Part shown: positions 38,628 through 60,905 of the stretch, piece by piece
Position numbering within the stretch: the stretch's first letter is position 1
Layout of the letters: every line of letters starts with the position of its first letter
Assembly (NCBI RefSeq): GCF_041821085.1
Contig: NZ_JBGUAZ010000001.1
Location: forward strand, 496,001 to 560,000
Direction: 5' to 3'
DNA: 64,000 nt
From: Natrinema sp. HArc-T2
GTDB lineage: Archaea > Halobacteriota > Halobacteria > Halobacteriales > Natrialbaceae
The notes under the pieces: generated by a model
The model's database searches: none
Seen by the model: only the letters and a program-made list of their open reading frames with translations
Told to the model about the DNA's origin: nothing
Position numbers and translations under genes: made by a program

Positions 38628-39227
38628 TTAGTTGCCGCCGCCACCGCCGCCGCCGGCTCCGGTATCGTTGCCGCCAGCACCACCGTTACCGTCGGTGCCA
38701 CCGTCTTCCATGCCGCCGTCGCCGCCGTCACCGCCATCGCCACCGTCACCGCCGTCACCGCCGTTGCCGTTGTCTTCCTCGTCACCGCCGTTGCCGGACG
38801 CGCCGGGGGTCACTTCGACCAGGTCCAGCTGGGAGTCGCGGAACTCTCCATCGTCACCCATCGTCTCGCTGTCGCCCGAGCTGAGGGCGATATCTTCTGA
38901 GAGCAGGAAGCCCCACGTTGGGGCTTCGGCACCTAGATCGTAACTGATGATGTAGGCCTCCCAGTCGTCCGGATCGTCGAAGATGTCGTCTTCCGACCCG
39001 GAGTCCGCGATCAGATCCTCTTTCGTCTGCGTGTTTAGCTCCGAGATGACCTCGAAGTCCTGGCCGGGCCGGTAGTCGTCTCCGTACACGAGCACTTGGC
39101 CGTCCGCCTGAGCGCTGACGGTCCCGGTCGCGCCTGCGCCGAGGGCGAGCGCCGTCGTGGCGACCGCTCCTTTCTTCATGAACGAGCGCCGTGAGTCGTC
39201 GAATAGTCCGCTATCGTCTTCTGTCAT
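38628..39227 (-). CDS. Tat-exported protein with glycine-rich tail (paralogue 1)
   Basis: The protein has 199 residues. A twin-arginine signal (DDSRRSFMKKGAVATTALALG, cleaved after VSA) is followed by a domain of about 100 residues including VYGDDYRPGQDFEVISELNT and IFDDPDDWEAYIISYD. The C-terminal 55 residues are almost only Gly, Asp, Asn and Met, from GASGNGGDEEDNGNGGDGG onward. It lacks a lipobox. A paralogue lies 0.6 kb upstream with the same domain and a shared 5' leader. No function is recognised. A GTG nine bases upstream is in frame, but the ATG at 39227 has a good AGGTGAG ribosome site. Confidence 0.78.
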   Translation of the reverse strand: MTEDDSGLFDDSRRSFMKKGAVATTALALGAGATGTVSAQADGQVLVYGDDYRPGQDFEVISELNTQTKEDLIADSGSEDDIFDDPDDWEAYIISYDLGAEAPTWGFLLSEDIALSSGDSETMGDDGEFRDSQLDLVEVTPGASGNGGDEEDNGNGGDGGDGGDGGDGGDGGMEDGGTDGNGGAGGNDTGAGGGGGGGN

Positions 39228-39839: not shown

Positions 39840-40271
39840 TTACAACTCGGCTTCGATCATGTCCAACTGGGAGTCACGGAACGCTCCGTCCTCACCCATC
39901 GTCTCGCTGTCGCCGGCTTCGAGGCTGATATCCTCCGTAAACAGGATCCCCCACGCCGGGGCGTCCGTGTCCAGATCGTACTTGATTATGTATGCGTCCC
40001 AGTCGTCCGGGTCGTCGAACACGTCGTCCGCAGAGCCGGAGTCCGCCAACACGTCCTCTTTCGTCTCCGGTTGGAGTTCCGAGACGACGTCGAAGTCGGC
40101 ATCGGGACGGTAGTCGTCATCGAACACGACGACCACGTCCTCGTCGTCCTGTGCAGTGGCGGTTCCGGCTGTCGCGCCCGCACCGAGGGCGAGCGCCGTC
40201 GCAGCCAGCGTTCCTCGCTTTGCGAGCGAGCCGCTCGAGTCGCTCGACTGGTCTGTATCGTTTTCTGTCAT
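39840..40271 (-). CDS. Tat-exported protein (paralogue 2)
   Basis: The protein has 143 residues. Its signal region is ESSGSLAKRG-like: only KRG remains where the twin arginine is expected (SLAKRGTLAATALALGAGAT), so export by Tat is weaker evidence than for paralogue 1. The mature domain, VVVFDDDYRPDADFDVVSEL through VFDDPDDWDAYIIKYD and ETMGEDGAFRDSQLDMIEAE, aligns directly with paralogue 1, but there is no glycine-rich tail. Both genes share the leader hairpin and the AGGTGAG ribosome site, implying a recent tandem duplication. Confidence 0.75.
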   Translation of the reverse strand: MTENDTDQSSDSSGSLAKRGTLAATALALGAGATAGTATAQDDEDVVVVFDDDYRPDADFDVVSELQPETKEDVLADSGSADDVFDDPDDWDAYIIKYDLDTDAPAWGILFTEDISLEAGDSETMGEDGAFRDSQLDMIEAEL

Positions 40272-49416: not shown

Positions 49417-49529
49417 AACCCGCCGACCCTGACGCGGTTCGGTCGCCGACGTCTATGCTGGATGACACCGATGACAGTGACGCGACCCATCGTGGCCCCA
49501 TCGAACGGGGACGACGACCGACAGGCTTG

Positions 49530-49610
49530 ATACGGTCTGCTGTCCCGATGTCCCGGTGCAACCGCGGTGCGGGTCGCGGTTGCACCGGAATGACTTACAG
49601 TAGTCCGTAT
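49530..49610. repeat. Palindromic repeat family 1, copy A
   Basis: An 81-base element with terminal inverted repeats ATACGGTCTGCTGT / ACAGTAGTCCGTAT and a perfect inner stem CCGGTGCAACCGC / GCGGTTGCACCGG. It lies between the PadR gene and the MgtC promoter. Related copies are at 52679-52759 and 60701-60782. Two nested stems with divergent inner sequences but matching pairing suggest a folded DNA or RNA structure is conserved. Confidence 0.75.
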
Positions 49611-49663
49611 GACACAGGGGTGTCCCGACAGCGGTTACGGACTCAGCGAAACGCGGAGCCGTG

Positions 49664-52554: not shown

Positions 52555-52678
52555 TACTCGAGTGGGCACCCGCGAGACTCATTAATCCCCGGATTCGTGC
52601 GTAGAATCGCCTTCAATCTGCCCTGGATATACACATCTGTGGATAGACTATCGCAGAACTGACCGCTGAGGATCGGTC

Positions 52679-52759
52679 ATACGGTTTGCTGTAACGATGT
52701 CCCGGTTCACCCGCAGGGCGGTCGCGGTCCCACCGGCACTGACTGACAGTAGACCGTAT
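52679..52759. repeat. Palindromic repeat family 1, copy B
   Basis: An 81-base relative of copy A: ATACGGTTTGCTGTAACGATGTCCCGGT...CACCGGCACTGACTGACAGTAGACCGTAT, with outer termini paired (ATACGGT / ACCGTAT). It sits between folD and glyA, where the remaining 312 bases hold no gene. Confidence 0.7.
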
Positions 52760-52866
52760 CAGTTCGCGTCAATAGCACTCGCCGCTCGTGAGTGGGGACC
52801 TGACGACGAGTCGGCACAGAAAAACGATCGAATTCGGATGTCGGCTATGTGGATCCCGGTCTCGCG

Positions 52867-59932: not shown

Positions 59933-60691
59933 ATGCAGGGACAAGCCCAACAGCAGGCGTACGACCGTGGCATCACGATCTTCTCGCCCGACGGCCGACT
60001 CTACCAGGTCGAGTACGCTCGCGAGGCGGTCAAGCGAGGAACAGCCAGTATCGGCGTCCGAACGAACGATGGCGTCGTACTCGCCGTCGACAAACGAGTC
60101 CCCTCCCCGCTGCTCGAGGACTCGAGCGTCGAGAAGATTCACAAGGCAGACGACCACGTCGGCATCGCCAGCGCGGGCCACGTCGCCGACGCCCGTCAGC
60201 TGATCGACTTCGCCCGCCGCCAGTCGCAGGTCAACCAGCTGCGCTACGGCGAGCCGATCGGCGTCGAGACGCTGACCAAAGAAGTCACCGACCACATCCA
60301 GCAGTACACCCAGGTCGGCGGTGCCCGCCCGTTCGGCGTCGCGCTGATCGTCGGCGGCATCGACAACGGCGAACCGCGCCTGTTCGAGACCGACCCCTCG
60401 GGGACTCCCTACGAGTGGAAGGCGCTGGCCGTCGGTGCCGACCGCGGGGAACTCCAGAACTACTTAGAGGAGAACTACGACGACGAGGCCGACCTCGATG
60501 GCGGCATCCAGCTCGCCCTCGACGCGCTCGCGTCGGTCAACGACGGCTCCCTGCTCCCCAACGAAGTGGGGCTGGCGACCGTCGACGTCGAAACCGAGAC
60601 CTTCGAACAGTTCGACGCGGATCGGATCGAGGATTACCTCACCGAGAACGAGCTTCTCGACACCGGTGAAGACGACGAAGCCGACGAGTAA
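59933..60691 (+). CDS. psmA: Proteasome alpha subunit
   Basis: The protein has 252 residues. The N-terminal gate motif QQAYDRGITIFSPDGRLYQV followed by EYAREAVKRGTASIGVRTND is typical; alpha rings cap the 20S core and gate substrate entry. The C terminus (ENELLDTGEDDEADE) is very acidic, as in haloarchaeal alpha subunits. The start lies four bases after the rnp2 stop. Confidence 0.96.
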   Translation: MQGQAQQQAYDRGITIFSPDGRLYQVEYAREAVKRGTASIGVRTNDGVVLAVDKRVPSPLLEDSSVEKIHKADDHVGIASAGHVADARQLIDFARRQSQVNQLRYGEPIGVETLTKEVTDHIQQYTQVGGARPFGVALIVGGIDNGEPRLFETDPSGTPYEWKALAVGADRGELQNYLEENYDDEADLDGGIQLALDALASVNDGSLLPNEVGLATVDVETETFEQFDADRIEDYLTENELLDTGEDDEADE

Positions 60692-60700
60692 CCCCTACTG

Positions 60701-60782
60701 AGACGGGCTGCTGTCCCGATGTCCCGGTGGGACGCAGGGCAGGTTGGCGGTCCCACCGGCACCCACTGACAGGAGTCCGTAC
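60701..60782. repeat. Palindromic repeat family 1, copy C
   Basis: A relative of copies A and B: AGACGGGCTGCTGTCCCGATGTCCCGGTGGGAC...GGTCCCACCGGCACCCACTGACAGGAGTCCGTAC. The inner stem CCGGTGGGAC/GTCCCACCGG is perfect although its bases differ from copy A. It lies between psmA and the SBDS gene. Confidence 0.7.
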
Positions 60783-60905
60783 GATCCGTTTTCGCGTTCG
60801 CTTACCACTCCTCGAGACCCCTGTCTCGGTCTTGTCGCGCCGATGCCGGCCCGTACCCACCGACGCCCGTCCACACCGATCGGGGTCGCTCGTCGGGAAA
60901 CACTC

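Follow-up and report, generated by a model that had tools for sequence, protein, structure and literature searches.

A 64,000-nucleotide stretch of the genome of Natrinema sp. HArc-T2 (contig NZ_JBGUAZ010000001.1, positions 496,001 to 560,000; hereafter the window) contains three copies of a short palindromic repeat, all on the forward strand and all situated between called genes, as a first-pass annotation of the window had stated. Copy 1 (49530..49610, 81 bp) has intact ATACGG...CCGTAT termini and scored 96.1 bits (E 6e-22) with R1, a covariance model of the family. It lies between two TGA triplets, at 49528..49530 (the A doubling as the first base of the repeat, a reading taken from the sequence and from the family statistics given below) and at 49610..49612, and the left arm of its inner stem, CCGGTGCAACCGC (49553..49565), is fully complementary to the right arm, GCGGTTGCACCGG (49576..49588). 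Copy 2 (52679..52759, 81 bp, R1 score 82.4 bits) also has intact termini and is flanked by TCA at 52677..52679 and 52759..52761, with an inner stem that is mispaired in part. Copy 3 (60701..60782, 82 bp, R1 score 71.8 bits) ends in AGACGG...CCGTAC; its left TGA (60699..60701) is 7 nt past the gene at 59933-60691, which stops with TAA (60689-60691), and the triplet on its right (60782..60784) reads CGA, a T to C change that leaves the middle base unaltered.

The ATACGG...CCGTAT termini originally attributed to all three copies are therefore shared by copies 1 and 2 but not by copy 3. A common CTGTCCCGATGTCCCGG block had been recognised as well, and all three copies are among its matches, copy 2 with two mismatches; when up to three mismatches are allowed, four matches occur in the window against 0.44 expected, a number reached in 0/100 shuffles, and three of the four are copies 1-3. 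The inner stems had been described as perfect or near-perfect, which is correct for copy 1, with 13/13 inner pairs, and for copy 3 (CCGGTGGGAC/GTCCCACCGG), but not for copy 2, where CCGGTTCACCCGC/GCGGTCCCACCGG is interrupted by an internal loop. Fold z-scores were -6.4, -3.0 and -2.4 for copies 1, 2 and 3, respectively, the fold of copy 3 being matched in strength by 5/200 shuffles. At Rfam gathering scores the window yielded a single tRNA only, so the repeat is not a described RNA family. Elsewhere in the window, 38813-39091 and 39851-40129 form a 279-bp direct repeat, 78% identical.

The three copies had been put forward as members of a dispersed family, an idea that depended on further copies elsewhere in the genome, and many were found. 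R1 was built from 27 aligned copies with a structure written by hand (25 of the first 30 loci, with L015, L018, L021, L026 and L030 omitted, plus window copies 2 and 3), and it matched all 150 candidates that were scored out of 3,051 from a first look. One site was reported on both strands, so these represent 149 distinct sites, a lower bound, and the genome holds at least that number. With copy 1 as the query, 40 of 155 candidates were scored and 55 matches were listed; the best 40 matches are separate places (81-100% identity, 76-91 bp), and those beyond them are mostly partial or reverse-strand repeats of the same places. All 149 copies are 75-89 bp in length, 116 of them 81 or 82 bp, which is too short to encode a transposase, and the quasi-palindromic consensus has terminal inverted repeats (ATACGGTCTGCTGT at the left end, ATACGGACTNCTGT at the right end when read as its reverse complement).

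Across 18 other genomes of the genus, match counts ranged from 0 to 149, bearing in mind that such counts may include one site on both strands (the 32 rows of genome G015 are 16 sites). Within the family Natrialbaceae, to which Natrinema and Natrialba belong, matches were present in 93/121 sampled genomes and 25/29 genera, while in other families of the order 2/12 genomes gave one or two weak matches. The hosts among the matches listed were Natrinema, Haloterrigena, Natrialba, Natronorubrum, Natrarchaeobius and two Halococcaceae MAGs, and plasmid matches came from 11 records of Natrinema, Natronorubrum, Halomontanus, Natribaculum and Haloterrigena. Phages gave no match at E 1e-5, and neither of two patterns searched in viral contigs had an exact match. 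No description of this repeat family was recognised among the papers listed from the open-licence PMC literature; the available part of the Natrinema J7-2 genome paper counts 54 insertion sequences and does not mention the term MITE (PMC3402447), and in that of a REP survey archaea are named only among the references (PMC3733652).

Copies are flanked by a 3-bp direct repeat of the form TNA (e.g., TGA/TGA, TCA/TCA), the flanks reading as TN and NA when the repeat is taken as ATACGG...CCGTAT. TNA was present on the left in 138/149 copies, on the right in 124/149, and on both sides in 118/149. The same middle base was found on both sides in 134/149 copies, and among those with a double TNA in 107/118, against 57.7 after permutation (sd 5.05, maximum 78 in 10,000 permutations). 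This match is direct (G-G, C-C) and not complementary, and so is not a product of stem pairing. The duplication was taken as three bases because agreement falls to 30/149 or 25/149 when the repeat is extended by one base on either side; agreement at offsets 2 to 5 (28 to 77 of 149) was put down to biased base composition. Among elements with good ends in titled contigs of other genomes (loci L272-L351, some of which may overlap), the middle base was the same in 74/81. C precedes the T at 57% of 45 non-stop insertions versus 23% of background sites (strand-symmetrised). Insertion occurs at T-N-A, preferably C-T-S-A-G, and duplicates three bases. TnpA-REP/RAYT elements move without target duplication, and the label 'REP-like', which had been offered for these repeats beside 'MITE-like', is in that sense contradicted by the duplications.

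Relatives differ in the sites that are occupied. The two nearest genomes were queried with the joined flanks of ten sites, and a synteny search covered 198 loci of other genomes (L055-L084, L224-L391). Fifty site/locus pairs, covering 25 of the 149 elements, comprised 27 empty-like (a gap of up to 45 bp between the flanks), 20 occupied-like and three other; these pairs are not independent, since some places are covered by more than one locus and many loci were chosen for holding an element. At least one empty-like site was seen for 16 of the 25 elements with a syntenic site, the length was exactly that of a single TNA at the empty sites of five elements, and the TNA could still be read at four. 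In the clearest case, C3:597215, genomes G011 and G016 read GAACAC-TGA, the end of a coding sequence, without interruption, where the allele of the present strain is GAGCAC-TGA followed by the element. Window copies 1 and 2 gave no clean empty site, the spacers of the relatives being too diverged.

Some orthologous sites carried a different element. At C6:78951, G011 and G016 (L264, L265, L301) hold an element of opposite orientation at the same TCA site, either because one stop codon was hit repeatedly or because the palindrome was inverted, and at C5:221211 the TGA stop carries in G016 (L258) a different subfamily with a perfectly paired inner stem, by either independent insertion or replacement through gene conversion. 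The occupancy of these two sites therefore indicates that some stop codons are hit repeatedly, or that the element is exchanged. At the ortholog of C5:156450 (L253, L255), the flanks are 181 bp apart rather than 81, and the flank at the coding end is partly duplicated.

In G015, three copies are identical across 81 bp and have unrelated flanks. Identical sets at unrelated sites were also found in G041 (five, four and three copies), G091 (four) and G047 (three); the 20 copies examined in these three genomes had been picked for equal scores, four of the five equal-score sets being wholly identical and the other having three identical copies out of four, and the same TNA was present on both sides in 18/20. 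Movement has therefore been recent in G015, G041, G091 and G047. In the genome of the present strain the two most similar copies share 97.6% identity, and 7/149 copies have a neighbour at 95% or above, so its own activity looks older. With TNA duplications, empty sites, identical recent copies and a patchy copy number, the description 'MITE-like' is well supported, and the repeats very probably constitute a non-autonomous DNA transposon family (MITE, or small mobile repeat) of Natrialbaceae that moves by a mechanism of the kind proposed below.

The duplicated triplet fell exactly on a called stop codon in 80/149 elements, and stop codons make up 237 of the 3,332 stop-or-intergenic TNA sites in the same stretches. 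Overlaps with called genes never exceeded 30 bp (0/149 elements), the calls coming from a simple codon-usage method whose training set was 36 long ORFs in the window, and the neighbouring genes were convergent in 56 cases, tandem in 74 and divergent in 19. Because all stretches except the window had been chosen for holding an element, the test was repeated within each spacer, using the 107 elements with identical TNAs (42 dropped); 62 of these were at a stop versus 27.8 under uniform placement (sd 3.4). When sites were weighted by target sequence, with weights learnt from the 45 non-stop insertions, the expectation became 40.8 (two flanking bases) or 45.2 (six bases) against the 62 seen. Target sequence explains about 38-51% of the stop-codon excess, and there is a remainder beyond it (62 versus 45.2, sd 2.7). 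None of window copies 1-3 is on a called stop codon.

The 80 elements make 82 stop contacts, 54 in the same orientation as the gene and 28 in the opposite one (binomial p 0.005); the left arm faces the gene in the former and the right arm in the latter. Fresh copies (the 20 above and three of G015) were at stops in 8/23 cases and inside a called gene in 2/23, compared with 80/149 and 0/149 in the present genome, a difference that fits the removal of harmful insertions, in numbers that are small and come from mostly shorter flanks and looser caller thresholds. Copies may persist where they are harmless, above all at TGA stops, where the duplicated TGA would restore the stop and leave the protein unchanged.

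The first-pass annotation had seen in the differing inner stems a conservation of pairing rather than of plain sequence. This holds across subfamilies and source lineages, but upkeep was not evident in individual copies, the altered pairs being mostly one-sided in the three orthologous-looking copies compared. The variable hexamers (R1 model columns 28-33 and 50-55) are exactly complementary in 48/145 copies against a permutation mean of 12.9 (maximum 25 in 2,000); the loss of pairing in additional copies, named at the outset as evidence against the idea, is thus seen in part, in the 97/145 copies without exact complementarity. Across all 149 copies the pairing signal is confined to columns 28 and 30-32 with their partners, and elsewhere in the stem the pairing of each column is no more than 0.05 away from the value for shuffled 3' letters. 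In the 27-copy alignment, 89.2% of cells are paired (shuffled 87.2, sd 0.5) and 23 cells are two-sided against 12.5 (sd 2.3), while a weak signal comes from the number of pairs with a two-sided change (6 versus 4.3, a value reached in 44/500 shuffles) and from that of further pair types (21 versus 19.5, 98/500). The common perfectly paired states correspond to four lineages, TGCAAC, TGGGAC, CGCACC and TGCACC. Two fresh lineages of G041, CCGGCGCACCCGC/GCGGGTGCGCCGG and CCGGCGCAACCGC/GCGGTTGCGCCGG, differ by one inner pair altered on both sides, and also at two positions beyond that stem; in a third fresh lineage, one pair is G-U. Hexamer complementarity and the two-sided step in G041 were taken as selection on source copies.

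In three orthologous-looking copies, 14 altered pairs were one-sided, one was two-sided and paired, and one was two-sided and unpaired. The idea that the inner stem simply decays as copies age was unsupported, as pairing showed no fall with an age proxy (rho -0.07, p 0.38, n 149) and the inner stem was fully paired in 14 of the 37 most deviant copies versus 3 of the 15 least deviant, in a test that is biased toward paired copies because copies were found by a structure model. Since the amplified source copies examined are paired while the stems of the lineages vary, pairing probably matters for mobility and not for the host, even though decay after insertion found no support in the age test.

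A transposase with matching termini, the first-pass annotation's suggestion for a partner, was found neither by end patterns nor by reading of transposase loci. A 16-bp end pattern gave no IS-sized pair in 53 genomes (17 + 36), nor did a 15-bp pattern in G015; matches were judged by their coordinates and 50 loci were read, nearly all of which proved to be short elements, while the others lacked a clear second end. A 508-bp end spacing in G088 was rejected, its flanks being unequal (TGA, TCA) and its right end belonging to a separate short element. Transposases of PF01609 (50 of 70 rows read, from four genomes) had no matching ends, their loci containing three TNA-KACGG end pairs in which the middle base was never equal and the ends were alike at 8-9/16 positions, and PF13586 had 0 matches in six genomes. 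No IS-sized candidate was seen in 569,761 bases of G041 (40 stretches, five of them wholly masked, together a minor part of the genome), where a TNA-flanked pair of 755 bp was discarded since it encloses a reductase-like gene, presumably, from its GGGPAG motif, an FAD-type oxidoreductase. A scan of 1.9 Mb of partly overlapping loci likewise revealed no partner; it gave 18 weak pairs of ends, spaced by 300-3,500 bp, of which 17 were rechecked and 16 agree at 7-10/16 positions, while the pair at L131 (14/16 positions) consists of two elements already among the 149. A possible composite element formed by C4:72566 and C4:74553 (TCA...TCA, 2,066 bp apart) was also set aside, with no transposase recognised between them; the longest ORF there, of 464 aa, is one that we take to encode a DnaG-like primase. 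Matching ends were further noted around 162 bp at G062:C1:780480-780645, with TTA on both sides; this unit is roughly double the element in length and may be nested or dimeric. MITE partners often have only a few terminal bases in common with their elements. The claim was kept at 'MITE-like' without a known partner because these searches were confined to exact end patterns or to portions of genomes.

The mechanism proposed involves a DDE transposase of the IS5/PIF-Harbinger type that would act in trans, recognise the ends (TACGG...) and probably the folded inner stem as well, and excise or copy the unit before inserting it at C|TNA|G through cuts staggered by 3 nt. The one ground for suggesting an IS5-type enzyme is the target site: C|TNA|G and the 3-bp duplication match the habits of the IS1031 group of IS5 elements, which are described as preferring TNA and making 3-bp repeats (PMC12016507), and of NuwaII, a eukaryotic member of the related PHIS superfamily, with its C|TNA|G target (PMC4482050). 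These resemble the present family in their 3-bp TNA duplication, that of PIF/Harbinger being TWA, and the NuwaII target is the same as the one found here (PMC12016507, PMC4482050). However, the IS1031 group, NuwaII and PIF/Harbinger have members that code for a transposase, whereas the present family encodes none and no partner was found. The single published IS1031-group end that was compared, that of ISLrh (GAACCTGTCTAGTATCT), is unlike TACGG (PMC12016507).

Among short repeats without a transposase, ERIC, Correia and RUP duplicate TA. The present family differs from these three in duplicating TNA and in having archaeal hosts. Prokaryotic MITEs of this sort share with it the form of short palindromes, a normally intergenic position and a high copy number, as well as mobilisation in trans (which would apply here under the proposed mechanism) and, for some, a location near gene 3' ends (PMC10969869). 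REP/RAYT elements and PATEs are, as here, hairpin-forming intergenic repeats, but PATEs are described as having neither target duplication nor terminal inverted repeats (PMC3119063). The nearest described kind is represented by SMR-A and SMR-B of Haloquadratum walsbyi (e.g., HqIRS41, 80 bp), which are likewise haloarchaeal, about 80-110 bp long, with prominent inverted ends and no transposase; no matching transposon is known for them, and they reach 54 copies per family with strain-specific insertions (PMC3119063). By description they are set apart, as SMRs are portrayed as lacking target duplication, and SMR-A targets IS605/PATE palindromes, whereas the present family duplicates TNA and targets CTNAG, often at stops (PMC3119063). 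The repeats are thus a new family of a kind already known, unusual in their stop-codon bias, their paired source lineages and their missing partner.

The concentration at gene ends could also be read as the mark of an element used by the host, such as a 3' UTR hairpin, RNA stabiliser or terminator, that is selected there and for which mobility is history only. The 80/149 copies on called stops and 56/149 between convergent genes would be expected of it, as would the orientation bias at stop contacts (54 vs 28, p 0.005) and the strong folds, and by the age proxy the youngest copies are not those with the best pairing; but one genus spans 0 to 149 matches, relatives differ in their sites, and the consensus right end has no T-run. 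Pairing, too, weighs against such a role, the outer-stem and most inner columns being within 0.05 of shuffled pairing and the altered pairs of the three orthologous-looking copies being 14 one-sided and two two-sided, so that this explanation is considered very unlikely. Even less probable, to the point of being barely credible, is descent from IS200/IS605, either as a PATE or as a REP moved by a RAYT-like Y1 transposase, with recognition of a single-strand hairpin and no target duplication: the direct TNA duplication in most copies contradicts it, and PATEs by definition lack the inverted terminal ends seen here (PMC3119063), despite the strong hairpin and the abundance of PATEs and IS605-type elements in Haloquadratum (PMC3119063).

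Other explanations accept mobility but alter the enzyme. If a non-IS5 enzyme required the whole folded element, no longer element with the same ends would exist, in line with 53 genomes and G015 in which no IS-sized element bears these ends, with pattern matches that read nearly all as short elements, and with the Haloquadratum SMRs, which are also without a partner (PMC3119063). Partners sharing few terminal bases would, however, escape pattern searches, and the C|TNA|G target with its 3-bp repeat is the habit of IS5/PHIS (PMC12016507, PMC4482050), so that such an enzyme is judged rather unlikely. A more speculative reading, and a distinctly doubtful one, is of a hairpin-only transposon family, in which the enzyme, an uncharacterised and possibly domesticated IS5-like protein of Natrialbaceae, would read the inner stem, mobile lineages would need both arms altered together, and stop-biased insertion would spare the protein.

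The preferred reading, of a small non-autonomous transposon family, bears on a wider question, as the mobilisation of the Haloquadratum SMRs has been called enigmatic (PMC3119063). A recently moving element with defined ends, a defined target and fresh insertions offers a handle on the archaeal enzyme that moves transposase-free repeats, and the exact use of stop codons suggests a route by which such an element may reach more than 100 copies in a gene-dense genome. By inference, its spread across the family could serve as a strain-typing marker, and could also cause false calls of 'conserved RNA structure'.
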